The position numbers and the translations under genes were made by a program. A stretch of 64,000 bases of DNA from the NCBI GenBank assembly GCA_018266395.1, contig JAFEAM010000002.1:1-64000 (forward strand), in the 5' to 3' direction. This DNA comes from Bacteroidota bacterium. GTDB lineage: Bacteria > Bacteroidota > Bacteroidia > Cytophagales > Cyclobacteriaceae. Positions 803 to 17,820 of this stretch are shown piece after piece. Position 1 is the stretch's first letter. The number at the start of each line of letters is the position of its first letter. The notes under the pieces are model-generated. The model did not search any database and had not been told where the DNA came from. It saw only the letters and a list, made by a program, of their open reading frames with translations.

Positions 803-1894
803 ATGTCCAGACTCAAAGAATATTTGAGCGATCCCCTATTGCGTCTTCTGTACGAAGAAATTCGTTCAGCAGGACCGGTTCGTTCGGTATCACTGGACCT
901 TACTCATGTCTGCAACTTAAGGTGCAAGGGCTGCTATTACTTTGAGGAGGGCATGGATCGTGCGGGTGAAGGCTCTGATCTGGCTTTGGAGAATTGGATT
1001 CACCAGGAACTGGAGCGCGGGACAAACTTTGTGACGGTAGTGGGCGGGGAGCCCAGCCTGCAACTGACGCGGTTGAAAAAACTGTATGATCATTTCAGAC
1101 TCAGTGTTGCATCCAACGGTTTGATCAGGATTCCTAAAGAAGGATTTGAGAATCTGCCCATTGGGATTTCCATCTGGGGCACCAAATACACAGACTCAAA
1201 ACTAAGGGCCAACGGCCGGCGGGACTTGTTCGGTGAAGCGCTCCGAAATTACGCCGGTGATGAACGCGCCTTTTGGTACTACACCGTTGCACCGGGACAC
1301 GCTGAGGAGATAGAGACAGTTGTTGAGCAATGCATACGGAATGGCAACCGGGTGCTCTTCAACTACTACAGCGACCTTTCAGGCTTTGGCGGCGGATTGG
1401 ATTATCGCAAAGGGTTTCAGGATGTCGCCGAAGAGATAGACCGGATGATCGACCGGTATCCGGGACGAGTGCTCACCACCAGGTACTTTAACAGAGTTGT
1501 GACTTCCGGCCGACTCTATGACATGAACTGGGGCTATGATGTGTGTACCAATGTTTCAGTCAATCTCGCCCAGAATCAGTTCAGGATGAGTAATGGACAG
1601 CCGTACAATCCGCATTTCCGGGCGTACAACGCCGATTTTGCCTCCACCCGCCGTTGCTGCACGGGGACCAGCAGAAGCTGCGATTCATGCTTCGACAGCT
1701 GGGAACACTTTTCCTGGATCATGCTTCACATGAAAAAACATCTCGGTTCGCAGGATGAGTTTGCGAATTGGCTGGGCACTGTATTTATGTTCTATTTTAC
1801 CACACGGCTCGTGAAGAATTCAGATGGTGACGCTATTCTGGAGAAGGTCCACCGGCTGGGCGTTAACCATGAATATGAGTGGGCATCAAAATAA
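803..1894 (+). CDS. Radical SAM protein with C-terminal Cys-rich region, head of the sHdr operon
   Basis: A 363-residue protein with a canonical CxxxCxxC radical-SAM motif (C37, C41, C44) shortly after the N-terminus and a GGEPS glycine-rich SAM-binding motif. A C-terminal Cys cluster (RCCTG then SCDSC) could hold an auxiliary Fe-S cluster in SPASM fashion. The start at 803 is preferred to an in-frame TTG at 749, because the additional leader is AT-rich, would overlap the operator, and does not resemble the family. It is the first gene of the plus-strand sHdr/lipoate operon, 31 bp before the ArsR gene. It differs from the two LipS-like radical SAM proteins further down. Substrate unknown; a role in cofactor or peptide maturation for the sulfur pathway is inferred from position alone. 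Confidence 0.8.
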   Translation: MSRLKEYLSDPLLRLLYEEIRSAGPVRSVSLDLTHVCNLRCKGCYYFEEGMDRAGEGSDLALENWIHQELERGTNFVTVVGGEPSLQLTRLKKLYDHFRLSVASNGLIRIPKEGFENLPIGISIWGTKYTDSKLRANGRRDLFGEALRNYAGDERAFWYYTVAPGHAEEIETVVEQCIRNGNRVLFNYYSDLSGFGGGLDYRKGFQDVAEEIDRMIDRYPGRVLTTRYFNRVVTSGRLYDMNWGYDVCTNVSVNLAQNQFRMSNGQPYNPHFRAYNADFASTRRCCTGTSRSCDSCFDSWEHFSWIMLHMKKHLGSQDEFANWLGTVFMFYFTTRLVKNSDGDAILEKVHRLGVNHEYEWASK

Positions 1895-1925
1895 CAGACA
1901 CTAAATCTGATTCGACTAAAACACC

Positions 1926-2228
1926 ATGGAAATAACAAAACGAAAAATTAGTGCGACAAAGCTCAGAAGGGTGGCCGAAATATTCGGAGGCCTCGCCCAT
2001 CCTGTCAGGCTTGAAATTTTGGAATACCTGGAAGACGGAATTCCCAGGACGGTGGGCGACATCCTTGCGCAGGTTAAGATTGACCCCACCCTGCTTACCC
2101 ATCACTTGTCAAAAATGAAGAGCATCGGAATACTGGAATCTGAGAGAGACGGCAGGAACATCTATTACCGGCTGATGATGAAAGAAGTGACAGACGTATT
2201 TGATTGCATTCAGCATTGCAGAATTTAG
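1926..2228 (+). CDS. ArsR-family transcriptional repressor (sHdrR/SoxR-like)
   Basis: A 100-residue winged-helix protein with the ArsR core: LAHPVRLEILEYL in helices 1-2, the recognition region LLTHHLSKMKSIGIL (about 56-70), and the wing around ERDGRNIYYRL. It lacks the metal-binding CVC motif of arsenic sensors. Its only two cysteines are C94 and C98 near the C-terminus. Known sHdrR and SoxR repressors of sulfur oxidisers are ArsR proteins that sense (poly)sulfide through a pair of cysteines; here the pair is four residues apart, so the geometry would differ. It is encoded between the radical SAM gene and tusA. The likely operator is the 739-790 inverted repeat. Family call is firm; sulfur sensing is inferred. 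Confidence 0.85.
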   Translation: MEITKRKISATKLRRVAEIFGGLAHPVRLEILEYLEDGIPRTVGDILAQVKIDPTLLTHHLSKMKSIGILESERDGRNIYYRLMMKEVTDVFDCIQHCRI

Positions 2229-2248
2229 ACACCAAACCATTCAAAAAT

Positions 2249-2488
2249 ATGAGTGATGTAAAAGTTGTTAAAACCCTGGATTGCACCGGACTCCTGTGTC
2301 CCATGCCGGTGGTCAAGACTTTCAAGACCATCAAGGAAATGCAGGTAGGAGATGTGCTTGAAATGATTGCAACCGATCCGGGCGCAATGCCCGACATGAA
2401 GGCCTGGGCAAATCAAACCCAGCATGAACTCCTCGAGGCCACTGAAGCTGGCGGCAAATTCAAGTTTCTTATAAAGAAGACACACTAA
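2249..2488 (+). CDS. tusA: TusA-family sulfur carrier protein
   Basis: A 79-residue TusA/SirA-like protein with the diagnostic CPxP motif (C17-P-M-P20) after the first strand; C17 is the expected persulfide-carrying residue. The ATG at 2249 gives the usual family length; a longer in-frame opening from 2204 overlaps the ArsR gene and adds no TusA-like sequence. In sulfur-oxidising bacteria TusA donates sulfane sulfur to the rDsr or sHdr machinery and exchanges it with DsrE proteins. Here it is 12 bp upstream of a DsrE-family gene and in the same operon as sHdr, matching the known tusA-dsrE-shdr arrangement. It acts in the cytoplasm. Confidence 0.93.
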   Translation: MSDVKVVKTLDCTGLLCPMPVVKTFKTIKEMQVGDVLEMIATDPGAMPDMKAWANQTQHELLEATEAGGKFKFLIKKTH

Positions 2489-2500
2489 AAATGTAGCACA

Positions 2501-3013
2501 ATGGCAAACGGAACCAACAAACTCGCCCTGATTGCATCCAAAGGAACCCTGGATTGGGCCTATCCGCCTTTCATTCTTGCCAATGCAGCGGCCGCCATGG
2601 GATGGGATGTGGGAATCTTCTTCACCTTCTACGGTCTTCCTCTGCTGAAGAAAGATCTGAAGCTGAGCGTAACACCCGTTGGCAATCCGGCCATGCCGAT
2701 GAAAATGCCTTTCGGACCGGAGGGCTTCCAGAACATCAACTGGCCAATCCCCAATCTCATCACAGCCAATATTCCGGGCTTTGAAAGTGTGGCGGTAAGC
2801 CTGATGAAAAAAGGATTTAAGAACAAGGGAGTGGCCACCATCGAGGAGTTGCGGGAAACGGCACTTGAAATGGATGTGAAGATGATTGGCTGCCAGATGA
2901 CCATGGATGTATTCGGATTCAAGAAGGAAGACTTTATAGACAAAGCTGAGATAGGCGGAGCTGCTGCCTTTCTGCAGTTTGCTTCGGATGCCAACGTCAG
3001 TCTCTTCGTCTGA
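2501..3013 (+). CDS. DsrE-family sulfurtransferase (DsrE2/DsrE3-like)
   Basis: A 170-residue DsrE/F/H-fold protein. The N-terminus (LALIASKGTLDWAYPPFILA) is the DsrE-type first strand and helix, and the conserved cysteine C131 in GCQMTMDVFG is the likely persulfide site. It matches the larger DsrE2/DsrE3A class, which relays sulfur with TusA in sulfur oxidisers. No membrane segment is evident. It follows tusA directly and precedes a lipoate-protein ligase. The exact DsrE subclass cannot be fixed without a phylogeny. Confidence 0.85.
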   Translation: MANGTNKLALIASKGTLDWAYPPFILANAAAAMGWDVGIFFTFYGLPLLKKDLKLSVTPVGNPAMPMKMPFGPEGFQNINWPIPNLITANIPGFESVAVSLMKKGFKNKGVATIEELRETALEMDVKMIGCQMTMDVFGFKKEDFIDKAEIGGAAAFLQFASDANVSLFV

Positions 3014-3028
3014 GGTTTAGACAACCGG

Positions 3029-4120
3029 ATGCCTATCCGTTGGATCGATGCCGGCACAGTCAGTGACCTGCGATCCCAGAGCATTTACCATGGTCTCGGG
3101 TATGCGCAGGAGCGGAGAACCCCGGATACGATCGTGCTGGCGACTCCCGAAAGTCCTTACCTGTGTGTAGGACATTTTCAGGATCCGGCAAGGGAACTGG
3201 ATCTTGAGTTTTGCCGCAAGTCCGGGCTTCCGGTGATCAGGAGAGAAACGGGAGGTGGCACGGTGCTGATTGACAGCGGGCAGTTGTTTGTACAATGGGT
3301 ATTCCAACGGGAATCCCTTCCACGAAAAGTGGAGCAAAGGTTTGAGACATTCATTAAGCCGATTGTTGAGACCTATTCGTTCTTTGGAATTGATGCTAAA
3401 CTTTATCCGGTCAACGACATTCATGTCAATGGCCGGAAAATTTGCGGAACAGGTGCAGGCACTATTGGTGAAGCTGAAGTTGTAACCGGAAATTTCCTCT
3501 TTGATTTTGATACTGAGAAGATGGTGCAGGCACTTAATCTTCCCGGTGAAGTCTTCAGGGAGCAAACCCGCGAAAGCTTAAACAAGTATCTCACCACCTT
3601 CGGCAAGGAGAAGAGATCTCAGCCTGACCGGAAGGAGGTGATCGAGGTATACATGGCGCAATGCAGAAAGGTATTGGGTCGTGACTTCTTCGACGGCAAC
3701 CTCACCGAAAAGGAATCGAAAGAGATGGAGCTGATTGAAGAGAAGTGGAGGGAAGAGGCAGGTCATTTCATCCCGTTGTCCAGGCCGGAGGAGCGTTTGT
3801 TGAAGATCCATGCCGGCGTTTGGATCGGTCAGATGAAACATGCTGCGCGTGGCGGTTTCATAGAATCCGTGATCCGGATGAACGAAAACAGGATTGAGTT
3901 CATCAAACTGAAAGCGGATGCCGGCAACGCAACTGCAAAAGACTGGAATGGGCTGGAAACAAGCCTGACCGGGGCAGTCCTGGAAAGGGAGCAACTGTCA
4001 GACAGGCTGGCAAAATATTTCAGCAGTCACCGTGAACAGGGCGGCTTCCATATCGACGACTGGGTGGAAGCGCTTCTTCGCATAAGGAATGAAAAGAAAA
4101 GAGTGACAGGCCGTGAGTAG
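3029..4120 (+). CDS. Lipoate-protein ligase, sLpl type (copy 1)
   Basis: A 363-residue member of the LplA/LipB/BirA fold. RRETGGG (71-77) is the lipoyl-adenylate binding loop, and ND (129-130) followed by GRK with K137 matches the catalytic-lysine motif NDxxVxGRKIxG. A C-terminal extension of roughly 170 residues suggests the two-domain sLpl(AB) form, which lipoylates LbpA proteins in sHdr organisms. It is encoded 15 bp after a dsrE gene and upstream of the first lbpA, and its end overlaps the next small gene by 8 bp. A second ligase sits at 11741-12865; the two differ substantially. The target (LbpA1, LbpA2, or both) is unknown, and a scaffold or octanoyl-transfer role for one copy is possible. 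Confidence 0.88.
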   Translation: MPIRWIDAGTVSDLRSQSIYHGLGYAQERRTPDTIVLATPESPYLCVGHFQDPARELDLEFCRKSGLPVIRRETGGGTVLIDSGQLFVQWVFQRESLPRKVEQRFETFIKPIVETYSFFGIDAKLYPVNDIHVNGRKICGTGAGTIGEAEVVTGNFLFDFDTEKMVQALNLPGEVFREQTRESLNKYLTTFGKEKRSQPDRKEVIEVYMAQCRKVLGRDFFDGNLTEKESKEMELIEEKWREEAGHFIPLSRPEERLLKIHAGVWIGQMKHAARGGFIESVIRMNENRIEFIKLKADAGNATAKDWNGLETSLTGAVLEREQLSDRLAKYFSSHREQGGFHIDDWVEALLRIRNEKKRVTGRE

Positions 4121-4364
4121 ACTGATTGGAAGGATTGTGACAGCGGATGAGGTGGCCAGACTTCCCGGGGAAATAGCCAACGAATGGTTTCTTCTGGAGG
4201 TATTGTCCACCGATGAGAAGGGCAGGGCAAACAAGCTGAGGATAGCCGGTCATGATAAAAACAAGGATTTGCTTCGCGATCATCTCCTGGAATTGGAGCA
4301 TGGTCCCGACAAGAGATACATATTCTTTTTCTCAGACCCCGACCGGGCCTGTGAACTTGAATAA
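4113..4364 (+). CDS. Small uncharacterised protein of the sHdr operon (GTG start)
   Basis: An 83-residue acidic protein starting with GTG at 4113, overlapping the end of the ligase gene by 8 bp, which suggests translational coupling. I recognise no family. It has no cysteine until the C-terminal RACELE, no membrane segment and no signal peptide. Strand, tight overlap and placement between a lipoate ligase and a DsrE gene argue that it is a real gene. It may be a small partner of the ligase or of the sulfur relay; function not known. Confidence 0.6.
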   Translation: MSRLIGRIVTADEVARLPGEIANEWFLLEVLSTDEKGRANKLRIAGHDKNKDLLRDHLLELEHGPDKRYIFFFSDPDRACELE

Positions 4365-4395
4365 CAGGAGATAAAGACTTAATAACACAGTTAAT

Positions 4396-4773
4396 ATGGA
4401 CAACGAAGGAAAGAAGATTCTCGTCATTCAAACCCACGGTGTAGAAACTCCAACGCGAACTTATTCGCCTTTGTTCTATGCCATGGCGGCGGCAGCCATG
4501 GAAATGGAGGTAATGGTGTGGTTCACCATGAATGGCACCAACCAGCTTAAGAAGGGCGAGGCTGAAAAAGTCCAGCTGGACAAATCCAGCAATGTCACAC
4601 TAAAGACCATGATCCAGATGGCCATGGACTCTGATGTCAAACTCAGGGTCTGTCAGCAAAGCCTGGAACTCTGGAACATGAAAAAAGAAGATCTCATTGA
4701 CGGTGTTGAAATATTGGGAGCTACCAGCATAATCGATCTCTCGCTCAATGCCGATCATGTAATGTATTTCTGA
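4396..4773 (+). CDS. DsrE-family sulfurtransferase, small form
   Basis: A 125-residue DsrE-fold protein. It opens with the strand KKILVIQTHGVETP, followed by FYAMAAAAMEMEVMVWFTM, a typical DsrE helix and strand. C86 in RVCQQSLELWNM is the probable active cysteine, corresponding to C131 of the larger DsrE upstream. Length and motif resemble the DsrE3-like proteins near sHdr genes. It precedes lbpA by 16 bp. Having two DsrE paralogues beside one TusA suggests a branched or two-step sulfur relay feeding sHdr; which partner it serves is inferred only. Confidence 0.82.
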   Translation: MDNEGKKILVIQTHGVETPTRTYSPLFYAMAAAAMEMEVMVWFTMNGTNQLKKGEAEKVQLDKSSNVTLKTMIQMAMDSDVKLRVCQQSLELWNMKKEDLIDGVEILGATSIIDLSLNADHVMYF

Positions 4774-4789
4774 CCACAACTATCATACT

Positions 4790-5260
4790 ATGTCACACGA
4801 AAAGATCAATGAATGTGTTATCCCGAAAGACCTTCATTATTCCGTGGAGGATAACACCTGGGTCCGGCTGAACGAGGATGGCACCGTTACGGTCGGCATG
4901 ACAGATATCGCACAACACCTGGCAGGCCCCATCCTTCATGCGAAGGCAAAAGGAGCAGGTACCGATCGGAAGAAAGGCAAGCCTATTGCAACTGTGGAAA
5001 GCGGCAAGTGGGTGGGACCGGTAAAGTCCCCCGTGTCCGGGGTCATCACTGAGGTGAATGAAAAGCTTGCAGGCGATGCACAGCTTATCAACCGTAGCCC
5101 CTATCGTGAAGGCTGGGTGGTAAAGATGAAACCCGAAGCACTCGACGCGGAGCTGAAGGAAATGGTGACCGGCGACCAGGCAGTTGCAGCCTACAAAGCC
5201 AAAATTGAACGCGACAACATCAAGGCCTGCAACCATATCGAAGGTTCCGACACCTATTAG
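4790..5260 (+). CDS. lbpA1: Lipoate-binding protein LbpA (copy 1), GcvH-like
   Basis: A 156-residue protein of the GcvH fold. The lipoylation site is in VESGKWVGPVKSP, with K73 as the modified lysine, between the two hammerhead strands; glycine-cleavage H proteins have the same arrangement. Here there are no gcvT/P genes nearby; the gene sits directly upstream of hdrC1. In sHdr organisms LbpA carries lipoate essential for sulfane-sulfur oxidation and is distinct from GcvH. The spacing to DsrE is 16 bp and to hdrC1 33 bp. It differs considerably from the second copy at 10352. Confidence 0.92.
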   Translation: MSHEKINECVIPKDLHYSVEDNTWVRLNEDGTVTVGMTDIAQHLAGPILHAKAKGAGTDRKKGKPIATVESGKWVGPVKSPVSGVITEVNEKLAGDAQLINRSPYREGWVVKMKPEALDAELKEMVTGDQAVAAYKAKIERDNIKACNHIEGSDTY

Positions 5261-5293
5261 TTAATGCATTTATAAAGAAGATTTGAAACTGAC

Positions 5294-6013
5294 ATGGCTG
5301 CGAAGAATACACTCGACCTGAGCATGAACAAGTACGCAGATGTTCCTTACGAGGAGAAGGAGCGTCTGTTTGAGGAGATGAAGGCTGATCACAGATGGAA
5401 TCATGTGCTCTATGGTTGCTACGAGTGTGGCATCTGCGTCGCCGCATGCCCTTCTGCGCGGTTTTACGATTTCAGCCCCAGGGTAATCGCACAGGCTGCT
5501 GCCCGCGAGGACGTGGATCTGGTGTACACACTGATGAACGACAGTGTGTGGGATTGTTCCCAGTGTTTCTCCTGTGACCGGTGCCCGCGCCAGAACAGCC
5601 CGGGCCAGATCATCACGGTCATGCGCGAAGTGGCAGTAAAGAATGGTCTGAAGACAGCCAAGGAAGCGCTTGAAGGTTACGGCCGCATCATCTACAAAAT
5701 CATGTCAACCGGTACGCAGGTATCACCCGACATGCTGCAGCCCAATGCATTCCCCGATTGGGGCGGTCATGTGAAAGATATTTCTGACAACCTGGACGTG
5801 TGGAGAAAAGCCCTCCCGCCGGAGACGCTGCACACCACTGAAACAGGCTGGCAGATTACAGACAAGACTATCATTGAACTCTACCTCATCTGGCACATGA
5901 CGGGCGTTATGAAACTCATTGAAGGTGTGGATGAGGGACTCTTCATGATTCTCGTTGACGTGATGGAAGAGCGGCTCGAGGAAGCAGGTTACGACAACAT
6001 TTCATTTGACTAA
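5294..6013 (+). CDS. hdrC1: sHdrC1, ferredoxin-like subunit of the sHdr complex
   Basis: A 239-residue HdrC homologue with two Fe-S binding motifs: C42, C45, C48, C52 (CYECGICVAACP) and C88, C91, C94, C97 (CSQCFSCDRC). These would hold two [4Fe-4S] clusters passing electrons between the HdrB and HdrA subunits. The helical C-terminal half is typical of HdrC. It starts the core C1-B1-A-hyp-C2 block that defines sHdr clusters, as opposed to methanogen Hdr clusters, and is preceded by lbpA. Cytoplasmic. Confidence 0.92.
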   Translation: MAAKNTLDLSMNKYADVPYEEKERLFEEMKADHRWNHVLYGCYECGICVAACPSARFYDFSPRVIAQAAAREDVDLVYTLMNDSVWDCSQCFSCDRCPRQNSPGQIITVMREVAVKNGLKTAKEALEGYGRIIYKIMSTGTQVSPDMLQPNAFPDWGGHVKDISDNLDVWRKALPPETLHTTETGWQITDKTIIELYLIWHMTGVMKLIEGVDEGLFMILVDVMEERLEEAGYDNISFD

Positions 6014-6030
6014 GACAAAACGCAGACAAC

Positions 6031-7218
6031 ATGATTCATTTACCCATTGTTAAGGCTGTCGATCGGAAATTCGAGGCCAACCCGGAGGAAGCTCCGAAGG
6101 AAGACATCCGCGAGGCGGTGCTGCAGCTGGAGAAGGAGGGCGAGTGGGAAGTCAGCCGTGTCCCGGAGCCTTACATGGAAGTGAAAACCAAGTATGGACG
6201 TTCCAAGAAGATCCCGGTTCAAAAGACGTGGCATCACAAGAGTTGCGGTCAATGCGGGCACATACCCGGATACTCCACTTCTATCTTCTGGCTGAACCGC
6301 GCGTTCGGGCTCGACTATCACGATCCGACCGATCAGACCTCATGTACGGCGTGGAACTATTACGCCTCTGCCACCTCCAACCCGGAGGCACAGGCAGCAG
6401 TGGCGATGCGAAACTTTGCAGCCGCAGCCGAGACCGGATATTTCCCCATAATCCACTGCGGCACCAGCTTCGGGCATTACAAGGAAGTTCGCCACGCCCT
6501 GGTGCATCAGCCCGAGCTGAGAAGGAAGGTCAAGAAGATTCTTGAAAAACTCGGCAAGAAACTGGTCATGCCGGAAGAGATCGTGCACTACAGCGAATGG
6601 GTGCTGGCCATGCGCAACAGGATTGCCGAACGCCAGGTCCTTGACATGAGCATGATCACGGCAACCGTTCACCCGGCCTGCCACTATCACAAACTGGTGG
6701 AAGATGATGCCGTCTACGACAGTGAAATATACGGTGCGCAACGGACCGCCATTATCACCTCGACCCTGCAGGCGCTGGGTATCAAGGTGGGCGACTATTC
6801 TACCTGGTATGACTGCTGCGGATTCGGTTTCCGCCACATCCTCGTGTCCAGGGATTTCTCGCGTTCTTTCTCCGTGCAACGTAAAATTGAAGTGATGATG
6901 GAGGAGGTTAATCCAGACATCACGGTTACCCATGACACGGGCTGTGTGACAACGCTGGATCAAAGCCAGTTCGCAGGAAAAGCACACGGAAAGAAAGTGG
7001 GACTTCCTGTACTGTCAGACTCACAAATTGCTGCCTTGGCCATGGGAGCACATCCTTATAAGGTGTTGCAGATGCATTGGCACAACACAGACAATACCAG
7101 GTTCCTCGAGAAGCTTGGTATAGATCATGCGAAGATGTGGGCCGAGTTTGAGGCAGAAGCAGATAAGATCAGAAGGGGTGAAAAACAATTCCTGACCTGG
7201 GAGGATGCAGCTAAATAG
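6031..7218 (+). CDS. hdrB1: sHdrB1, CCG-domain subunit
   Basis: A 395-residue HdrB-like protein. A Cys-rich N-terminal part (C72, C75 in SCGQCGH, and C105) is followed by a CCG motif (C262-C263 in DCCGFGF), an upstream HPACHYH element and a downstream TGCVTTLD. Canonical HdrB has two CX(31-39)CCGX(35-36)CxxC motifs binding noncubane clusters; here both are altered, as is usual for sHdrB1, with the closing CxxC reduced to a single Cys. It follows hdrC1 by 17 bp. Its likely role is the active-site or cluster-bearing subunit that handles sulfur-sulfur bonds in the reverse, oxidative direction. Confidence 0.9.
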   Translation: MIHLPIVKAVDRKFEANPEEAPKEDIREAVLQLEKEGEWEVSRVPEPYMEVKTKYGRSKKIPVQKTWHHKSCGQCGHIPGYSTSIFWLNRAFGLDYHDPTDQTSCTAWNYYASATSNPEAQAAVAMRNFAAAAETGYFPIIHCGTSFGHYKEVRHALVHQPELRRKVKKILEKLGKKLVMPEEIVHYSEWVLAMRNRIAERQVLDMSMITATVHPACHYHKLVEDDAVYDSEIYGAQRTAIITSTLQALGIKVGDYSTWYDCCGFGFRHILVSRDFSRSFSVQRKIEVMMEEVNPDITVTHDTGCVTTLDQSQFAGKAHGKKVGLPVLSDSQIAALAMGAHPYKVLQMHWHNTDNTRFLEKLGIDHAKMWAEFEAEADKIRRGEKQFLTWEDAAK

Positions 7219-7245: not shown

Positions 7246-8301
7246 ATGGCAAGCGATAATATTCTTGTAATCGGAGGCGGACCCACGGGCATGGAGGCAG
7301 CACGCGGGATAGCCTCACTCGGATACAAAGTCACATTAGTGGAAAAAAGGCCGCGCCTCGGAGGAACTCCCGATGCATCTCAATATGCGGCGCTCACGCC
7401 AGACCTCCGCAGCGCCGAAGAGGCCATTGGCGAAATGGTTGACGCTGTGACGAACAAGCCTAACGTTAACCTGATGCTCGACACAACAGTGGTCGGATCC
7501 TCCGGAAGTGTCGGTAATTTCAAGGTGAAAGCCATTCAGTCCGGCAAGGAAATCACCATCGACGCAGGTGCCGTGATCGTGTGTACAGGCTTCACCCACT
7601 TTGATCCGGGTCGCGAAACCCAGAAATACGGATACTATGAGCACGACGATGTCATCACCCTGGTGGATGCGGAGAAAATGCTGAAGGCCGGGAACTTCGT
7701 ACGCCCTTCAAACGGAGAGAAACCCAAACGTGTTTGCTTCATCCAGTGTGTCGGCTCCCGCGACCGCCAGATCGGCAATGAATATTGCAGCAAGGTCTGC
7801 TGTGGGATTTCCAGCAAACAGGCGATCGAAATCCGCCAGGTGGTGCCGGATTGCAAAGTCTTCATTTTCTATATCGATATGAGGATGTATGGCTACTGGG
7901 AAAATGAAATCTATTGGCCTGCACAGGAGAAGTACAAAGTCAATTACGTGAAAGGGATCGCGACCGAAATCGTGAAGAAAGGCGATCAGCTCATCGTCAA
8001 AGGTGAGGACACCACTCTGCGCCGCCCCATGGAAGTGCCAATGGACATTGTCATCCTCGCCGTGGGCATGGAACCGAGCGAAGGCACGAAGAAAGTCGCC
8101 GACATCTTTGGCCTGAAGAAGAACAAATATGGATTCATCGAAACCACGGGAGGTCCGCTCAACACAGTCTCTACCGAAGTGCCTGGTGTGTTTGCTGCCG
8201 GTGCCAGCACGGGTCCCTCTGACCTTGAAGACTGCGTATCCAGCGCTGGAGCAGCAGCAATGAAAGCCATCGCATCGCTACGCGCCGCCGTCCCTGCATG
8301 A
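7246..8301 (+). CDS. hdrA: sHdrA, FAD-binding subunit
   Basis: A 351-residue flavoprotein. The N-terminal Rossmann motif GGGPTG (10-15) ends with the acidic VEKRPRLGG for FAD. A Cys-rich segment (QCVGSRDRQIGNEYCSKVCC) matches the HdrA cluster motif, and a C-terminal VFAAGASTGPSDLEDCV matches the FAD-closing motif. It is far shorter than methanogen HdrA, lacking the additional ferredoxin and thioredoxin-reductase-like parts, which is typical of sHdrA. It is 4 bp from the next gene, hyp. Non-bifurcating electron transfer from the HdrB sites through HdrC is the accepted model for the family. Confidence 0.92.
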   Translation: MASDNILVIGGGPTGMEAARGIASLGYKVTLVEKRPRLGGTPDASQYAALTPDLRSAEEAIGEMVDAVTNKPNVNLMLDTTVVGSSGSVGNFKVKAIQSGKEITIDAGAVIVCTGFTHFDPGRETQKYGYYEHDDVITLVDAEKMLKAGNFVRPSNGEKPKRVCFIQCVGSRDRQIGNEYCSKVCCGISSKQAIEIRQVVPDCKVFIFYIDMRMYGYWENEIYWPAQEKYKVNYVKGIATEIVKKGDQLIVKGEDTTLRRPMEVPMDIVILAVGMEPSEGTKKVADIFGLKKNKYGFIETTGGPLNTVSTEVPGVFAAGASTGPSDLEDCVSSAGAAAMKAIASLRAAVPA

Positions 8302-8305
8302 GAGC

Positions 8306-10351: not shown

Positions 10352-10801
10352 ATGAAGCAGATCGGAAAATATCAGGTGCGGACGGATGTGTATTATGATC
10401 CGGCCAATCACTTCTGGATTGATGTGTCGGGTAACAGGGCCGTGATCGGCATGAGCCCGCTCGTGCAGGAAACCAGCGGCTCCTTTGTAGCCATCCAGTT
10501 TGCGGCCCCGGGCACCGTGTTCGCTAAGGGTGCCAGCATCGGCAGCGCGGAAGCGGAGAAACATGTGGGCCCACTCAAGGCTCCGGTCTCCGGAAAAGTT
10601 CTTTCTATCAACCAACAGGTGGTTGAGCGCCCCCAGCATATCAATGCTGATCCTTATGGAGAAGGATGGCTGATGGAAGTTGAACTGACCAACGCGGCAG
10701 CGGAATTGCCTTCATTGGTTTCAGGTGAACAGCAAATTACCCGCTGGTTTGAAGAGGAACTGCAAAAATTTGAAGAGAAGGGATGGATCGCTCAACCATA
10801 G
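10352..10801 (+). CDS. lbpA2: Lipoate-binding protein LbpA (copy 2)
   Basis: A 149-residue GcvH-like protein whose lipoylation site is AEAEKHVGPLKAPVSG, with K70 as the predicted modified lysine. It is divergent from LbpA1 (which has ESGKWVGP) and has an acidic helical C-terminus. It lies 15 bp after the HdrC2 fusion, and its end overlaps the LipS1-like gene by 19 bp, so it heads the lipoate-assembly block. In published sHdr clusters lbpA often sits next to lipS1-sLpl-lipS2. Two LbpAs may serve different halves of the complex (C1/B1 versus C2/ETF); this is inference. Confidence 0.9.
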   Translation: MKQIGKYQVRTDVYYDPANHFWIDVSGNRAVIGMSPLVQETSGSFVAIQFAAPGTVFAKGASIGSAEAEKHVGPLKAPVSGKVLSINQQVVERPQHINADPYGEGWLMEVELTNAAAELPSLVSGEQQITRWFEEELQKFEEKGWIAQP

Positions 10802-11739
10802 AGAGTCAACAGGACACGGCCTTCGGTTTACGGCTTGAACATTTCGGCCGGTCCATAACATTCCATGCGCCGGGACTCAAGCATTATTCCATTCCTGGGT
10901 TCGAACAGACAAACCCGCGCGCCTTTCTGCCTATCAGCCTCACCGGCAACGGGTGTGCACTGGACTGTGATCATTGTGACTCCAAAATCCTGGAGCCCAT
11001 GATAGCCCTGAATCCAAAAGAGGGACTCTTTTCACTTTGCCAGAAACTCGCAGCGGCAGGAACCGAGGCAGTTCTCATCAGCGGCGGCTCACAGCGCAAT
11101 GGAAAAGTCCCGTTCCTGAAACACATCGACGACATCAAAAGAATTAAATCCGAACTCGGCCTGAAGGTGATGGTGCACACCGGTTTAGTGGATGGCCCCA
11201 TGGCGGCAGGCCTGCAAAGTGCAGGAGTAGACGGAGTGGCACTCGACATTATCGGATCCAATGAAACTATCCGCCAGGTGTATCATCTCAGTGCAACAAC
11301 GGAGGACTATGATATCTCCATGAGATACCTCAGCGATTATGGCCTGAGCATGCGCCCTCATATCATCCTTGGTCTTCACTATGGAAAATTCCTTGGCGAG
11401 CATGCTGCGCTCGAGATGATTGCAAAATATGACATTCACGCGCTGATCCTGGTTATTCTCACTCCTCTTACCGGGACCCGCATGCAGAAGACAGCGCCCC
11501 CTCCAGCTGAAGAGGTGGCTGCTTTTTTTCACAAGGCAAGAATGAGAATGCCGGCCACCAAAATTCTGGTGGGCTGTGCACGACCCGGTGGTGAGTACAA
11601 AAAGATCGTAGACCGTGCCGCAGTGGAAGCCGGACTCAATGGCATTGCCTATCCTGCGGAAGGGATAATTGAATATGCATGTGAAAGAGGACTTGAACCC
11701 ACTTTTTTTGAGAACTCCTGCTCGTGTGGCGTAGACTGA
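10783..11739 (+). CDS. lipS1: Radical SAM sulfur-insertion enzyme, LipS1-like
   Basis: A 318-residue radical SAM protein with C-x3-C-x2-C in GNGCALDCDHCDSKI, followed by the glycine-rich LISGGSQRNG and a TIM-barrel body. The C-terminus carries the pair ENSCSCGVD. LipS1 and LipS2 together insert the two sulfurs into octanoyl groups in the sLpl/LipS lipoate pathway, replacing LipA. The order here (lbpA, this gene, lipoate ligase, second radical SAM) matches that pathway's conserved order; assignment to LipS1 rather than LipS2 rests on that order. It overlaps lbpA2 by 19 bp and is 1 bp from the ligase, implying tight coupling. Confidence 0.8.
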   Translation: MDRSTIESQQDTAFGLRLEHFGRSITFHAPGLKHYSIPGFEQTNPRAFLPISLTGNGCALDCDHCDSKILEPMIALNPKEGLFSLCQKLAAAGTEAVLISGGSQRNGKVPFLKHIDDIKRIKSELGLKVMVHTGLVDGPMAAGLQSAGVDGVALDIIGSNETIRQVYHLSATTEDYDISMRYLSDYGLSMRPHIILGLHYGKFLGEHAALEMIAKYDIHALILVILTPLTGTRMQKTAPPPAEEVAAFFHKARMRMPATKILVGCARPGGEYKKIVDRAAVEAGLNGIAYPAEGIIEYACERGLEPTFFENSCSCGVD

Positions 11740-11740
11740 A

Positions 11741-12865
11741 ATGAACCACTGGAGATACATCGAAGAACATGATGTGTCTGCCTCTCACGGGCTGGCAGCA
11801 GATGAACTTTTACTGCAGTCACATTCGTCGACTGGCAACTTGCCCGCGACACTAAAACTGTATACTTACCGGAACTACTGCGCGCTTTGCGGGCGCTTTC
11901 AACATATGACAGCTGAGATCGATGTTGAATCATGCAGGGTGCACGATGTGCAGATCGGAAGGCGGCTTACAGGCGGAGGTGCCATCATCATGGGCAACGA
12001 TCAGCTGGGCATCTGCCTTGCCACGCACACAGGCGCCTTTGCATGGAACCACATCCGGGATCTCTACCAGCTTTTTTCACAGCCGATAATTGACGCCCTG
12101 ACTGTATTTGGTGTCAAAGCCGGATTCCGGTCACGCAACGATCTGGAAGTGGCCGGCAAAAAGATTGCTGGACTCGGCATCCATATCAGCCCTGAAGGAG
12201 CGGTGCAGTTTCATTCCAGCTTGCTGTTGGATCTTGATATTCCGAAGATGATGCAGGTGCTGAATATTCCGATTCAGAAGTATTCAGATCGCCGGATGAT
12301 CCAGGCGGTATCGCAGAGAATGACGACCGTGAGAAGAGAAGCCGGACAAATGGTGACGATGGAGGCTTTGCGAAGTGAAATTCTCAAAGGTTACAGCAAG
12401 GCCTTTGGGGTTGAATTTCATCCGCAGCCATTTACATCAGCTGAGGAGTCTGCAATTCGGCAGTTGGAAGTAGAAAAATACGACACCAAGGCCTGGCTCT
12501 TTCAGCACAGCCCACAGGAGGACATGACAGGCATGAGCCTGAAGAAAACGCCAGATGGCCTCCTCCGAACTTATATCGGTTTGAAAGGCGATAACATCAA
12601 GAGCGTGATGATCACTGGAGACCTTCTGGCGATGCCCTCCTCATTTGCGCGCATTGAGACGCTGCTGAAGTGGACACCGCTGGAAAAGGAGAAGATTTCT
12701 TCCGTAATAGAAAAGGTCTGGATAGAAGACAAACTTCACAATTCAAACCTGCAAATTACGCCGGAACACCTTACGGAGGCCATCTGGACTGCTGCACAGC
12801 GTGCGCATGCCGCCCACCGCTATACCTACCATGGATCCTGTTACTATCCAAAAGAGACAGCCTGA
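11741..12865 (+). CDS. Lipoate-protein ligase, sLpl(AB) type (copy 2)
   Basis: A 374-residue lipoate ligase-like protein. RRLTGGG (74-80) is the lipoyl-AMP loop, and NDLEVAGKKIAG with K141 is the catalytic-lysine motif. A C-terminal accessory domain includes a Tyr/His-rich tail (RAHAAHRYTYHGSCYYP). It is bracketed by the two LipS-like radical SAM genes (1 bp and 18 bp gaps), the arrangement expected for sLpl(AB), which attaches octanoate or lipoate to LbpA. It is the more conventional pathway ligase by context; the copy at 3029 is additional. Which copy acts on which LbpA is unknown. Confidence 0.9.
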   Translation: MNHWRYIEEHDVSASHGLAADELLLQSHSSTGNLPATLKLYTYRNYCALCGRFQHMTAEIDVESCRVHDVQIGRRLTGGGAIIMGNDQLGICLATHTGAFAWNHIRDLYQLFSQPIIDALTVFGVKAGFRSRNDLEVAGKKIAGLGIHISPEGAVQFHSSLLLDLDIPKMMQVLNIPIQKYSDRRMIQAVSQRMTTVRREAGQMVTMEALRSEILKGYSKAFGVEFHPQPFTSAEESAIRQLEVEKYDTKAWLFQHSPQEDMTGMSLKKTPDGLLRTYIGLKGDNIKSVMITGDLLAMPSSFARIETLLKWTPLEKEKISSVIEKVWIEDKLHNSNLQITPEHLTEAIWTAAQRAHAAHRYTYHGSCYYPKETA

Positions 12866-12883
12866 AAACTTCACGTAACCTAT

Positions 12884-13969
12884 ATGATCAACACACAGAC
12901 CGCTCCTGTCAAAACAGAACGAAAAATCAGCCCGGAGTTTGTTCGCATCAGCGCAGCCAGCGCCATTGCATTGCGGCTCCAGTCCGGAAGATTTTCCCGT
13001 GATTTTGATTTCGGTGGAATTAATCTTCTCCTCAATTATGAGAACGGCTGCCTTTCGGACTGTTCATACTGTGGCCTGGCCCGGACACGGCCCGGTGCTT
13101 ATGAAGAGAAGAGTTTCATCCGCGTGGAGTGGCCGCTGGTGGAGACGGACAGGTTGATCGGCCGCATGAAAACGCATGAAGACAAGCTCACGCGTTTGTG
13201 CATCTCCATGGTTACACATGGAAGCGCTTATCGCGATACGCTGGAGATTACAAAGAAACTGACCTCCACTCTTCGTACTCCACTGTCCATTCTGGTTGCA
13301 CCTCCTACGCTCAATACGGAGAAGCTTCAGCAGTTCAAGGACAACGGTGTAGACATGATCGGCGTGGGACTGGATGCGATTACTGAAGAGACTTTCCGTC
13401 AGCACCGCACCAATGTGCCGAATGGTTCCCTCCGATGGGACAACTACTGGAACATCATCAACGAGTCAAGAAGAATCTTCGGACCATGGAAAGTAAACAT
13501 CCATACGGTTGTCGGGCTTGGAGAAACAGACAAAGACCTGATCGACATGTTTGTCTACCTGAAGGAACATCAGATTCTGCCTTACCTCTTCAGCTTCAAT
13601 CCGGAACCCGATTCCAGGATGGCCTTTTCTGAAAAGGCAAGCATTACCCGCTGGCGCCGGATTCAACTGGTGAAACACCTGATTGAAAAATATGAATTCC
13701 CTGCCGATGCAGTTTCTTATGATGACCAGGGCATGATCAGAAAGATGGAGATCCGTGGCCAATCCATTGCCAAAGCGATAGAAGACCTTGATGCTGGCAT
13801 TCCCTTCATGACCAACGGCTGCCCTTCCGAAGGAGGAGAAGAAGCAGGATGCTCCCGCCCATATGGAAGTTATCGGCCCAGCGAATCCTTCCGTGACTTC
13901 CCCTTTCAGCCGGAAATGGACGACATGCAGCTGATTCGCACGGAACTCGCTTTACAGGAAATTATCTAA
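12884..13969 (+). CDS. lipS2: Radical SAM sulfur-insertion enzyme, LipS2-like
   Basis: A 361-residue radical SAM protein with CLSDCSYCGLAR (C-x3-C-x-Y-C, the spacing and Tyr seen in BioB-like enzymes). The barrel contains SMVTHGS, APPTLN, GVGLDAI and VHTVVGLGET motifs typical of BioB/LipS-like proteins. The C-terminal NGCPSEGGEEAGCSRPYG has two cysteines that could ligate an auxiliary cluster sacrificed for sulfur insertion. It completes a lipS1-sLpl-lipS2 block. No LipT-like flavoprotein gene is seen. LipS2 rather than LipS1 is assigned by order and by its BioB resemblance; moderately sure. Confidence 0.8.
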   Translation: MINTQTAPVKTERKISPEFVRISAASAIALRLQSGRFSRDFDFGGINLLLNYENGCLSDCSYCGLARTRPGAYEEKSFIRVEWPLVETDRLIGRMKTHEDKLTRLCISMVTHGSAYRDTLEITKKLTSTLRTPLSILVAPPTLNTEKLQQFKDNGVDMIGVGLDAITEETFRQHRTNVPNGSLRWDNYWNIINESRRIFGPWKVNIHTVVGLGETDKDLIDMFVYLKEHQILPYLFSFNPEPDSRMAFSEKASITRWRRIQLVKHLIEKYEFPADAVSYDDQGMIRKMEIRGQSIAKAIEDLDAGIPFMTNGCPSEGGEEAGCSRPYGSYRPSESFRDFPFQPEMDDMQLIRTELALQEII

Positions 13970-13989
13970 GACTCAGTAATTAAACCGTT

Positions 13990-14751
13990 ATGAATATTAT
14001 CGTACCCATCAAACAGGTTCCGGACCTGGTAGAAGAACTGGAGATCGATGCTTCCGGGGTTGACCTCGACCGCTCCTCACTGAAGTTGAAACTCAATGAA
14101 TTCGATGATCATGCGCTGGAAGAGGCGCTGATCCTGAAGGAAGAGACGGGATCGACCGTTACCGCCATCGCGCTTGAAGCTGAAGATGTCGACAAAATAT
14201 TGTTCACCGCTTTTGCGAAAGGAGCAGACAAGATCATCAAGGTGACCGGACTGGAGAATCCTTCTGCACACCAGGCTGCCCAGGCAATGGCTGAAGTCAT
14301 CATGGGTCTTTCACCCGACCTGGTGATGACAGGCGTTCAGGCTGTTGACGATCGTGACGGACAAATACCCGTCCTTCTTGCGCATTATCTGAAGATACCC
14401 CATGTAAGTGTGGTAACAAGTGTTAAAGCAGAAGGCGGAGGGGTAACCGTGAGCAAGGAATATGGCGGCGGACTGGTTGCTGAATTTGAAGCAAAGCTTC
14501 CACTTGTAGTGGGAGTGCAGGCAGCCAGACAGTCGCCCCGCTATGTGCCCGTGGCAAAGGTGCGTCAGGTAATGAAGTCGGCAACAATTGAGGAAGTGGC
14601 AGCCGGCAGCACGTCAGCCACGGCCGGCTCTTCAGTAAAGCGCTTCTTCAAACCCGAAGGAGGACGTGGAGCAGAAATGCTGGAAGGTTCTGCGGAAGAG
14701 CAGGCATCGAAAATCATTCAGACACTGAAAGAAAAAGGAATCATCAAATGA
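13990..14751 (+). CDS. etfB: Electron transfer flavoprotein beta subunit
   Basis: A 253-residue EtfB. The N-terminus MNIIVPIKQVPD is the family signature, NEFDDHALEEAL follows, and TGVQAVDDRDGQIPVLLA is the AMP/FAD-binding ETF-beta motif. It overlaps etfA by 4 bp. In the etf-containing type of sHdr cluster the ETF is thought to take electrons from the complex and pass them to a membrane quinone reductase, and the EMO gene follows directly. No acyl-CoA dehydrogenase genes are nearby, so a role in fatty-acid oxidation is less likely than one in sulfur oxidation. Whether it bifurcates cannot be read reliably from sequence. Confidence 0.93.
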   Translation: MNIIVPIKQVPDLVEELEIDASGVDLDRSSLKLKLNEFDDHALEEALILKEETGSTVTAIALEAEDVDKILFTAFAKGADKIIKVTGLENPSAHQAAQAMAEVIMGLSPDLVMTGVQAVDDRDGQIPVLLAHYLKIPHVSVVTSVKAEGGGVTVSKEYGGGLVAEFEAKLPLVVGVQAARQSPRYVPVAKVRQVMKSATIEEVAAGSTSATAGSSVKRFFKPEGGRGAEMLEGSAEEQASKIIQTLKEKGIIK

Positions 14752-15707
14752 GCAATAACGTATACGTCGTCGCCGAACATATCAAGGGTAGGTTCGACGA
14801 CATCACCTTCGAAATGTTGGGCAAGGGCAAGGAAATTGCAGGTGCCCTTGGCGGGGAAGTTGTGGCCGTGCTGGCCGGCAGTGGTGTAAAAGGAATGGCT
14901 TCTCAGTTGGGAACCGCCTCAAAAGTGATCTGCATAGAATCTGAGGCACTGCAGCAATTTTCGCCGCTGGCTTATGCTAAGGCAGTCTCTGCAGTAGTGG
15001 GCGCCCATCAGCCTGCCATTGTGCTCACCGGGTATACGTCCATGGGGATGGAAATTGGCCCAGCTGTATCTGTCGACCTGAACATACCGCTCGTGTCCTT
15101 TGTGGGTTCATTGTCGGTGGATGGTGGAAAAGCCGTTGCCGTAAGTCAGTTGTATGGCGGCAAGATGAACGTGGAATCACATGCCGACGGCAACCAGTGC
15201 ATCATAAGCATTTTGCCGGGAGCATTTCCTGCCGATGCAGGCCGATCTTCCGGCAGCCCTGCCGTGGAAGATTTTGCAGCACCCGACCTTAGCGGACTTG
15301 CTGTAACTTTCAAGAAGCTCATCGAGCCTGAAGGCGGAGATGTGGACATCACCACACAGGATATTCTCGTGAGCGCAGGCCGCGGCATTCAATCAGATGA
15401 AAACCTTCCCATCGTGGAGGAACTTGCGAAAAAAATAGGCGGTGCGGTTTCATGTTCGCGCCCCCTGGTCGACAGCAAGTGGATGCCCAAGACCAGGCAG
15501 GTGGGAAAATCCGGTCTGAAAGTAAAACCGAAACTGTACCTGGCGCTCGGCATCAGCGGCGCGCCGGAACATATCGAGGGGATGAAAGACGCAGGTCTTA
15601 TCATTGCTGTGAACAGCGATCCCAAGGCACCGATCTTTGATTATGCTCACTATGGTGTGGTCGGTGACTTGTTTGAAATTATTCCTGCGCTTACTGGTAA
15701 GTTGTAA
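14748..15707 (+). CDS. etfA: Electron transfer flavoprotein alpha subunit
   Basis: A 319-residue EtfA with the C-terminal FAD-binding ETF-alpha signature LYLALGISGAPEH, then INSDP-like AVNSDPKAPIFDYAHYG. Its ATG overlaps the etfB stop by 4 bp (ATGA). The N-terminal half is the usual ETF domain shared with EtfB. It is followed after 40 bp by the EMO-type membrane oxidoreductase. Together EtfBA and EMO would deliver electrons from sHdr/LbpA to menaquinone; this pairing is known for EMO in other bacteria and is inferred here from order. Confidence 0.93.
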   Translation: MSNNVYVVAEHIKGRFDDITFEMLGKGKEIAGALGGEVVAVLAGSGVKGMASQLGTASKVICIESEALQQFSPLAYAKAVSAVVGAHQPAIVLTGYTSMGMEIGPAVSVDLNIPLVSFVGSLSVDGGKAVAVSQLYGGKMNVESHADGNQCIISILPGAFPADAGRSSGSPAVEDFAAPDLSGLAVTFKKLIEPEGGDVDITTQDILVSAGRGIQSDENLPIVEELAKKIGGAVSCSRPLVDSKWMPKTRQVGKSGLKVKPKLYLALGISGAPEHIEGMKDAGLIIAVNSDPKAPIFDYAHYGVVGDLFEIIPALTGKL

Positions 15708-15747
15708 AATATTTTGTGTTCACTGCCTGCCTAATGCCTGTACTGCC

Positions 15748-17820
15748 ATGATTGAAACCAGAGAGATCTATCGTCATTTTCCGTTCGTACTGGAGATCAT
15801 CTTCTATGTAGTGGCCTTCTCCACGATCGGATTCTTCATCTATGGATTCTACAGAAAGTATCAGAAGTACAGGAAAGGGCGTGAGGCCGGGCGCTTCAAC
15901 AATCTTGCAGGCAGGTTCCTGAAGGCGGCAGCCATAATGGCGAAAAACTCCACCGTCTTCAAGCGGGACGCCTATGCTGGCTTTGCCCACTGGATGATCT
16001 TCTGGGGATTTGTCGTGCTTTTCATCGGAACGGTGATTGTAGCCTTTGATTACGATTTTCTCCGGCATCTGAATCTGAAGTTGCTGCAGGGCAACTTCTA
16101 CCTCGGATTTTCCTTTGTCCTCGATATTTTCGGCGTACTCTTCCTGGTAGGCCTCGTGATGATGATGACACGGCGTGCAGGCAAACCGGCCCAGCTGGAC
16201 TACACACGCAACGACCTCGCCCCCGGCCAATACAACAGGAAAGGCTATGCCACCGACGATAAGATATTCCTGTGGCTCCTCTTTCTCATCGGCCTGACCG
16301 GCTTTTTCATTGAAGGCATACGCATTGCGGCCGACCGCCCCGCATTTGAGGTGTGGTCACCCGTAGGCTGGTCACTCGCGGGTTTGTCGGACATGGCAGG
16401 ACTGACACCCCACGCCAATTCGGCACACATCTACATGTGGTGGTTCCACGCCATCCTGGTGATGTTCTTCATTGCCTACATCCCGTATTCCAAAGCCATG
16501 CACATGCTGGTGGATTACGCCAACCTGATGTTCAAGGACGATATGGCAGCCAAACGTCTTCCGCGTGTTTCCGAAGAGCGCATGAAAGAAGGTATGGGAT
16601 ACAAGGCCGTCGTGGACTTTACCTGGAAGGAGTTGCTCGACTTTGACGCCTGCACAAAATGCGGCAGGTGCCACCAGGTGTGTCCAGCCAGAAATGCCGG
16701 CACACCGTTGTCTCCACGCGATCTCATCCTTGATTTACGCACCCATGCGAATGCGACCATCGGTGCTCCAGAATGGTTCACTCAGGCATTCAGCCCTGAT
16801 AAGAAGCAATCCGGCAAGCTGGCAGGAGAAATCATTCAGAAAGATGTCTTGTGGTCATGCACCACCTGCATGGCCTGCGTGGAAGTGTGCCCGGTTGGCA
16901 TCGAACATCTTACCAGCATCGTCAACCTGAGGAGATCATTGGTAGATCAGGGAGCCATGGAGACTTCGCTTCAGGATACGCTGGCTAACATCGGTGAGTA
17001 CGGCAACTCATTCGGTCAATCCGAAAAGAAACGAGCCGACTGGACCAAGGGCTTGAGCTTCAAAGTCAAGGATGTGAGGAAAGAAGAAGCCGAGTACCTC
17101 TGGTTTGTGGGCGACTATGCTTCTTATGATACGCGGATTCAGGGACTTTCCCGCCGTGTAGCCACTGTACTCCAGTCTGCCGGAATTGATTTCGGAATCC
17201 TCTACGAAGCAGAAAAGAATGCCGGCAATGATGTGCGGCGTGTAGGTGAGGAGGGATTGTATGAGATGCTGGTGGAGGACAATATGAAGGCCCTGGGCAA
17301 AGGCAAATTCAAGAGGATCTTCACAACAGACCCGCATTCATACAACACCATCAAAAACGAATACCCGGAGTACGGAGGCAATTATCAGATTGAGCACTAT
17401 ACAGGTTTGTTGCTGCGTCTTGTAAAGAACGGTCAACTGAAGTTCAGCAAGAAATTGGGATACAAGGTTACCTACCATGATCCTTGCTATCTCGGCCGTT
17501 ACAACGGAGAAGTCGATGCACCCCGTCAGTTGCTGGAGGCCATGGGCGTTGAGCTGATGGACATGCCACGCTGCCGTGAGAACTCGTTCTGCTGCGGCGC
17601 CGGAGGCGGCAGGATATGGATGGATGATTCCAAGATGAAAGAGCGTCCCAGCGAGATCCGCATCAGGGAGGCGCTGTCGCTTGGCGGGCAAGTGACGCAT
17701 TTCATTGTTGCCTGCCCGAAAGACTACGCCATGTTTTCAGATGCCGTCAAGACCAGTGGCAACGAAGGCCGCATGAAGGTGATGGATATTATTGAGTTGG
17801 CTGGGGAAGCGATGGGGTGA
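15748..17820 (+). CDS. emo: Membrane Fe-S oxidoreductase, EtfD/EMO type (ETF:menaquinone oxidoreductase)
   Basis: A 690-residue protein starting at ATG 15748; the longer in-frame opening overlaps etfA and is not expected to be translated. About five membrane helices fill residues 10-270 in a NarI/DsrM-like layout with candidate haem His in FAHW and WWFHA. A cytoplasmic HdrC-like part follows (CTKCGRCHQVCP from C302; CTTCMACVEVCP from C371), then an HdrB-like part with an intact CCG motif (DPCYLGRYNGE; C615-C616 in FCCGAGGG; VACPKDY). The first CCG region lacks cysteines (EKNAGNDVRR and TTDPHSYN). It is the last gene of the operon. Known EMO/EtfD proteins oxidise ETF and reduce menaquinone. 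Confidence 0.9.
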   Translation: MIETREIYRHFPFVLEIIFYVVAFSTIGFFIYGFYRKYQKYRKGREAGRFNNLAGRFLKAAAIMAKNSTVFKRDAYAGFAHWMIFWGFVVLFIGTVIVAFDYDFLRHLNLKLLQGNFYLGFSFVLDIFGVLFLVGLVMMMTRRAGKPAQLDYTRNDLAPGQYNRKGYATDDKIFLWLLFLIGLTGFFIEGIRIAADRPAFEVWSPVGWSLAGLSDMAGLTPHANSAHIYMWWFHAILVMFFIAYIPYSKAMHMLVDYANLMFKDDMAAKRLPRVSEERMKEGMGYKAVVDFTWKELLDFDACTKCGRCHQVCPARNAGTPLSPRDLILDLRTHANATIGAPEWFTQAFSPDKKQSGKLAGEIIQKDVLWSCTTCMACVEVCPVGIEHLTSIVNLRRSLVDQGAMETSLQDTLANIGEYGNSFGQSEKKRADWTKGLSFKVKDVRKEEAEYLWFVGDYASYDTRIQGLSRRVATVLQSAGIDFGILYEAEKNAGNDVRRVGEEGLYEMLVEDNMKALGKGKFKRIFTTDPHSYNTIKNEYPEYGGNYQIEHYTGLLLRLVKNGQLKFSKKLGYKVTYHDPCYLGRYNGEVDAPRQLLEAMGVELMDMPRCRENSFCCGAGGGRIWMDDSKMKERPSEIRIREALSLGGQVTHFIVACPKDYAMFSDAVKTSGNEGRMKVMDIIELAGEAMG

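Follow-up and report, generated by a model that had tools for sequence, protein, structure and literature searches.

A predicted type II sHdr island for sulfide or sulfane-sulfur oxidation, with an accompanying radical SAM gene, in a Cyclobacteriaceae genome

Cytophagales- and Saprospiraceae-like Bacteroidota are usually regarded as degraders of organic matter. The locus described here, a twenty-gene operon at positions 803 to 17820 of a DNA stretch from a Cyclobacteriaceae genome (assembly GCA_018266395.1), raises the question of whether such bacteria also carry the sHdr system for sulfur oxidation and, if so, in which form. The stretch, hereafter the window, comprises positions 1 to 64000 of contig C22 (98,688 bp), the window start being the contig end, and the host genome measures 4.43 Mb with a completeness of 97.6% and a contamination of 0.38%. 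Judged from its sequence, the operon forms part of a type II sHdr island that has probably spread by lateral transfer and very probably serves dissimilatory sulfide or sulfane-sulfur oxidation. A partial search of the literature on sHdr or Hdr-like proteins and Bacteroidota groups found no report of sHdr in the phylum, and we do not claim that its presence there is unreported. The text of PMC10332631 does not name a Bacteroid- taxon, the phyla being given in its figure 3, and PMC6338057 describes a Bacteroidetes/Chlorobi member with sulfur metabolism that contains dsr and qmo genes.

The original prediction described twenty co-directional genes separated by no more than 40 bp, and all twenty open reading frames (ORFs) are indeed present on the plus strand, with intergenic gaps of -19 to +40 bp. 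Genes were named from NCBIfam and Pfam profile matches, the names DsrE3, LbpA, sLpl and EMO being given by best family and context. The operon opens with a radical S-adenosylmethionine (SAM) protein that is associated with sHdr and belongs to a family without a name (803-1894), an ArsR-family regulator with a C-terminal CX3C motif (1926-2228), a TusA sulfur carrier with a CPMP motif (2249-2488, ATG at 2249; Pfam TusA above its cut-off) and a DsrE2-type sulfur carrier (2501-3013; NF047629 above its cut-off). There follow a first copy of the lipoate:protein ligase sLpl (3029-4120), an 83-residue protein of no recognized family (4113-4364) that is matched in 11 of the 18 Bacteroidota-titled loci discussed below, a DsrE3-like sulfurtransferase (4396-4773) and the GcvH-like lipoate-binding protein LbpA1 (4790-5260). 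The core consists of sHdrC1 (5294-6013; HdrC-type match with cluster cysteines), sHdrB1, the proposed catalytic subunit (6031-7218), a short sHdrA flavoprotein of 351 residues (7246-8301), the conserved 'hyp' subunit (8306-9052) and a 421-residue protein, sHdrB3, with Fer4 at residues 57-113 and CCG at residues 302-387 (9071-10336). Downstream lie a second GcvH-like protein, LbpA2 (10352-10801), the lipoyl synthase LipS1 (10783-11739; best hit, 228.6 bits against a cut-off of 230), a second sLpl (11741-12865), the lipoyl synthase LipS2 (12884-13969; best hit, 188 bits against a cut-off of 270), EtfB (13990-14751), EtfA (14748-15707) and EMO, a membrane ETF:quinone-type oxidoreductase (15748-17820, ATG at 15748); both sLpl copies and both Etf subunits were assigned by family match. 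The last product, which we take to be ETF:menaquinone oxidoreductase, has Fer4 and CCG domains above their cut-offs and a QmoC match below threshold at 14-194; it matched no EMO model. For hyp, a mostly helical fold was predicted (predicted local distance difference test score, pLDDT, 93.2; predicted template-modelling score, pTM, 0.91), to which no solved structure corresponded at E ≤0.001 (best 0.86), and profile searches gave E values of 0.36 and 0.73.

Two types of sHdr have been distinguished: type I has the arrangement C1B1AHC2B2, while in type II a single syntenic cluster holds C1B1AHB3 and etfAB, sHdrB3 being a fusion of C2 and B2 (PMC11582611). In the window, C1B1AH-B3 and etfAB are syntenic, and 4Fe-4S motifs and a CCG domain occur within the single 421-residue product of 9071-10336, which makes the cluster type II. 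The gene that the original prediction had called 'C2' is thus the fused sHdrB3, and the fused Fer4 and CCG product rules out a type I label. A methanogen-type or Flx-linked HdrABC, which the prediction itself had named as the outcome that would overturn it, was also rejected, as sHdrA has only 351 residues and scores 267.9 bits against a cut-off of 1100 for HdrA2 and 224.4 against 1400 for HdrA. The GcvH-like LbpA proteins have a modifiable lysine and are accompanied by their own lipoate assembly genes, as in sHdr-LbpA systems.

The gene set recurs in related loci, and its key residues are conserved. The best 80 of 546 confirmed places in a contig scan with sHdrB1 were taken as loci; at 40% query coverage C1 was matched in 79, B1 in 80, A in 78, hyp in 74, B3 in 71, EtfB in 60 and EtfA in 58 of them, counts that are affected by the varying length of the loci, many of which stop at contig ends. 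The EMO query matched 69 loci, an upper value, the query also matching B3. When the best hit per genome with at least 70% query coverage was considered, the host genome included, sHdrB1 cysteines C72, C75, C105, C143, C217, C262, C263 and C305 were present in 41 of 41 genomes, each cluster cysteine of sHdrC1 in 42 or 43 of 43, and C57 to C109 of sHdrB3 in 42 of 42. C131 of DsrE2 (24/24) and C86 of the DsrE3-like protein (32/32) were similarly retained, as were K73 of LbpA1 and K70 of LbpA2 (41/41 each), two counts that are not independent because the LbpA queries match each other's proteins; TusA was countable in six genomes, ORFs of fewer than 100 residues being left out. As the genes recur together in the 80 loci, and the cluster- and lipoate-binding residues are near-invariant, the gene set is far beyond chance. 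The family matches and this recurrence in relatives uphold the proposal of an sHdr-LbpA-lipoate-ETF-EMO system in a Bacteroidota genome. The further statement that every part of the pathway lies in the operon holds for the parts listed, but leaves out adjacent genes resembling soeBC and soeA and passes over the radical SAM gene.

What these genes might do can be proposed from their families, from which the reactions, their direction and their regulation are all taken. A type III SQR, the gene of which lies on another contig (C25), would convert sulfide to sulfane sulfur, and the sulfur would pass through TusA and the DsrE proteins to LbpA, the lipoate of which would be assembled in place by sLpl, LipS2 and LipS1. 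The sHdr complex (A, B1, C1, hyp and B3) would then release the LbpA-bound sulfur as sulfite, with electrons passing to EtfAB, EMO and the quinone pool. Sulfite may be oxidized at the inner membrane face by the adjacent SoeBC-SoeA-like complex, and sulfate would perhaps leave through a neighbouring SulP-family transporter. The ArsR protein is a likely sulfur-responsive switch, and the radical SAM protein a putative maturation factor.

The original prediction left the fuel as thiosulfate or sulfide. With a model for type III SQR ('selenoprotein subtype'), a protein encoded on contig C25 scores above the cut-off (631.8 against 525), and it matches solved SQRs, while a SoxB-like protein of the 5'-nucleotidase family on contig C11 (stretch L157, 5888-7681, minus strand) reaches 265.9 bits against a SoxB cut-off of 550. 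Since the SQR is above its cut-off and the SoxB-like protein far below, sulfide is the better supported fuel, and thiosulfate is so far unsupported. Four of six genomes match the SoxB-like gene at all, including two of the same family that have no sHdrB1 (70% in G186 and 69% in G049), and G146, the genome of the same genus, lacks a match to it. A search for SoxY was uninformative, there being no match anywhere, the 14 controls included.

The sulfite step is assigned to genes that straddle two contigs. At the very end of C22 (1-668, minus strand) lie the N-terminal 222 residues, a Fer4 subunit, of a SoeB-SoeC-like fusion that breaks off where the contig stops; the rest is found on C11 (L157, 2-940), where it precedes a SoeA-like 954-residue molybdopterin protein (957-3821) and a SulP-family transporter gene (Pfam above, TIGR00815 below the cut-off), the stretch from fusion to transporter spanning 2-5567. 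The two contig ends have at least 21 identical bases in common (24 by eye), and a 538-residue fusion at another locus (L143) matches the C22 gene with residues 1-219 (84%) and bases 8-937 of C11 with residues 225-538 (53%). The SoeA-like protein is 72% identical to its counterpart at L148. In relatives the type of gene truncated at 1-668 recurs beside sHdr genes, and SoeBC/SoeA-like genes adjoin sHdr or radical SAM genes. Among the stretches fetched from 50 genomes, the Fer4 fusion or part of it occurs in at least nine and the large subunit in at least seven, the host being counted in both; the stretches are short, so that these are lower values. The same gene pair is found on a plasmid of Thermomicrobium roseum (large subunit 60.8%), an organism with an sHdr-EtfAB-LbpA cluster (PMC6776052). 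Architecture and context thus indicate that a SoeABC-like sulfite-oxidizing complex likely stands next to the operon. As read from the sequence, it appears to resemble SoeABC in a Mo-type catalytic subunit, a Fer4 subunit without a leader and a hydrophobic, putative anchor part; unlike SoeABC, B and C are fused in one protein of about 540 residues, and neither the fusion nor the SoeA-like protein had a curated Soe match in NCBIfam or Pfam.

How did the system reach this host? The original prediction had placed it in a phylum not well studied for the pathway, where it is not unique: 18 of the best 80 loci are titled Bacteroidota (Cyclobacteriaceae, Flammeovirgaceae, Saprospiraceae and unspecified metagenome-assembled genomes, MAGs), with sHdrB1 identities of 77-88%. 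In a sample of 395 genomes of the phylum, sHdrB1 was matched at E ≤0.001 in 89, of which three (the host, G005 and G087) reached at least 65% identity over most of the length, the remainder being at or below 30%. A quick tree of C1, B1 and A was built from the window and 73 of 82 loci with hits, nine incomplete loci being left out, with the SH-like approximate likelihood ratio test (SH-aLRT) as its only support measure. The window groups with a Cyclobacteriaceae MAG (L038; SH-aLRT 97) within 13 Bacteroidota rows (99), near Calditrichota, while G005 and G087 group with Neomarinimicrobiota, SAR324 and archaeal rows. A single clade of the 17 Bacteroidota rows was rejected on this tree (approximately unbiased test, p-AU 1.17e-56), the group having been set by phylum and the test run after the tree had been seen. 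At least two entries into the Bacteroidota by lateral transfer would be the simplest reading.

Several points weigh against an island for dissimilatory sulfur oxidation. Both SQR and SulP proteins have other uses; haloarchaeal plasmids also carry the SoeA-like large subunit, so that its substrate is not fixed; and in the 395-genome sample sHdrB1 had no match in the same-genus genome, in seven genomes of the same family or in six of the same order, so that, the first eight in particular considered, the trait is recent or patchy in the host's group. It could be argued that the pathway runs as proposed but chiefly rids a heterotrophic host of toxic sulfide and contributes little to its energy metabolism, a reading that overlaps with ours and differs in purpose only. 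SQR is often detoxifying (PMC13384644); against this, EtfAB and EMO, which are positioned to carry electrons to quinone, lie within the operon and recur across phyla, and we regard detoxification as the chief purpose as rather unlikely. The same proteins might also work in the reducing direction, from quinol to disulfide or sulfane sulfur, in sulfur respiration or disproportionation. Reversibility has been predicted for Hdr proteins (PMC6776052), and PhsA (thiosulfate reductase) and DmsA are among the best family matches of the SoeA-like protein, all sub-threshold. LbpA, TusA, the DsrE proteins and, in bacteria, mostly LipS1/LipS2, however, go with the sHdr of sulfur oxidizers. Furthermore, periplasmic Psr, Phs and Ttr enzymes have a twin-arginine leader, unlike the SoeA-like subunit of the host, the printed N terminus of which has none; a reducing role is accordingly improbable.

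A mis-assembly had been named as a second outcome that would undo the original prediction, and no sign was seen that contig and host disagree, hemE excepted. This gene of the hemA-hemE region in the flank (26248-30074) matches 19 of 32 genomes, with its best match, at 57%, in a different family and none in G146, G049 or G186. That C22 is contamination or a chimera, and the host another organism, is highly improbable, for although sHdrB1 is missing from the close relatives sampled, hemE is odd and the flank matches the same-genus G146 weakly (best E 1.3e-14), the flank at about 50.2-58.4 kb is collinear with the same-family G049 at 66-71%, the end of C11 overlaps that of C22 within one gene, and a C11 gene is about 70% identical in two same-family genomes. 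No empty insertion site was found in relatives, and in G186 and G049 the region around the SoxB-like gene is not syntenic with C11 or C22.

Returning to the type II sHdr island, its first gene is the least known of its parts. The radical SAM protein reaches the cut-off of no named family (best NCBIfam match 29.4 bits against 180); Pfam Radical_SAM falls just short (26.9 against 29.5) and Fer4_12 is above (27.4 against 22). Nineteen of the 395 genomes match it at E 0.001; a full-length match is confined to the host and G005, both with sHdr, while G087 has sHdr and no radical SAM match. Of the genomes behind 47 of the 80 sHdr loci, 31 have a match, which is strong in 28 (E 1.3e-53 or better; in G395 and G397 over part of the length) and weak in three (L054, L088 and L097). 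The strong matches include 17 of 18 Bacteroidota-titled genomes, the exception being L051; the 19 without one comprise L051, Calditrichota (L053, L054), the tested Bacillota, Actinomycetota, Chloroflexi and Deltaproteobacteria-titled genomes, L072, a Gemmatimonadetes (L086), SAR324 (L103) and archaea (L101, L104). Twenty-six strong genomes were examined for linkage, G395 and G415 being left out, and in 22 the gene has sHdr, lip, ArsR, EMO or soeBC genes on the same stretch; it is at a contig end in G401, G403 and G405, and in G409 it lies apart in the stretch read. The radical SAM gene thus accompanies sHdr in several unrelated bacterial groups. On the sHdr tree its presence (27 rows) and absence (19 rows) need at least six changes, and radical SAM distances follow sHdr distances (r 0.54, n 22, with none of 9,999 permutations reaching r), a correlation that could arise from shared descent alone.

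An alignment of 19 radical SAM proteins has eight invariant cysteines (C37, C41, C44, C248, C285, C286, C293 and C296), and the CX3CX2C cysteines (C37, C41 and C44) are present in 20 of 23 proteins of a larger set. The ORFs as called in five genomes have no such motif, probably a result of late starts or contig ends. Relatives occur on 15 plasmid records, five being listed at 33-37% identity, and so the family at large is not confined to sHdr; on Burkholderia (L209) and Alteromonas (L210) plasmids the neighbours of the relative are a gene for a 'Phenylacetic acid catabolic protein' and one for PaaI or MaoC, which hints at substrates with acyl chains. The predicted fold (pLDDT 71.9) is too weak for detail, and its nearest solved folds, BlsE, anSME and TYW1, are general radical SAM folds only. 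Like maturase-type radical SAM proteins, the window protein has a CX3CX2C site and further conserved cysteines; unlike them, it reaches the cut-off of no named NCBIfam family, and its full-length close relatives were found with sHdr. Two radical SAM proteins of sHdr are established, LipS1 and LipS2 (PMC10332631, PMC6067878), which are separate genes here; a third is not named in the passages of the sHdr literature examined. We tentatively suggest that the protein may act alongside sLpl, LipS1 and LipS2 in the maturation of LbpA or of the sHdr or EMO iron-sulfur proteins, installing a new cofactor modification (for example on the LbpA-bound octanoyl or lipoyl group), and that it may mark a type II sHdr variety of its own, present in Bacteroidota, Planctomycetota, KSB1, Neomarinimicrobiota and other groups through which it spread. 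In a Saprospiraceae MAG, EMO and the radical SAM gene flank a magnesium-chelatase-like ATPase pair (L144, 9625-12519, minus strand).

The regulator is also unusual. The sensing pair of sHdrR is Cys50 and Cys116 (HdsHdrR), a pair absent from many related regulators in organisms with sHdr (PMC12423496). The window protein has C94 and C98 as its only cysteines and scores 37 bits against a BigR cut-off of 155. Both positions are cysteine in nine of nine aligned Bacteroidota sequences (G412 has two more cysteines), and in 13 and 11, respectively, of all 17 sequences; the protein may act as a sulfur sensor.

Beside the operon, a FadL/TodX-type outer-membrane protein is encoded at 18391-19737 (minus strand), and five further genomes have relatives of this gene close to their sHdr loci; the protein is possibly a channel for sulfur substrates. 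The gene had no match in six genomes of the family, in a search that had no positive control. A SufS-like aminotransferase recurs beside sHdr loci in 11 genomes (for example L042, 3-1370, minus strand) and was not among the host stretches compared (window 1-30000 and L157). Several recurrent clusters of ORFs without a family near the loci were set aside, their strand and position alone suggesting that they are probably antisense ORFs.

The system in the window is thus an established one, type II sHdr, of which no report was found for this host group, and its presence places the genes of a route from sulfane sulfur to sulfate in Cytophagales- and Saprospiraceae-like Bacteroidota. To that system are added the radical SAM gene, the CX3C ArsR protein and the linked SoeBC-SoeA genes, which are testable additions to a field that is still working out the cofactor chemistry and regulation of sHdr. 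Previously, EtfBA-linked (Group III) systems have been described in Actinobacteria and Firmicutes (PMC6067878), and T. roseum has a 19-gene cluster (PMC6776052). Compared with the type I sHdr of Hyphomicrobium denitrificans (shdrC1B1AHC2B2), the window operon has A, B1, C1, hyp, LbpA, sLpl-LipS1-LipS2 and an ArsR-type regulator in common, but C2 and B2 are fused, EtfAB and EMO lie in the operon, no lipT was recognized among its twenty genes, and the ArsR protein is without the Cys50/Cys116 pair. With known type II systems it shares the C1-B1-A-hyp-B3 core, EtfBA, LbpA copies, TusA and DsrE proteins. It differs from them in its Bacteroidota host, in having LipS1, sLpl and LipS2 within the operon between LbpA2 and EtfB, in the extra radical SAM gene and the gene for the 83-residue protein, and in the adjacent SoeBC fusion and SoeA.

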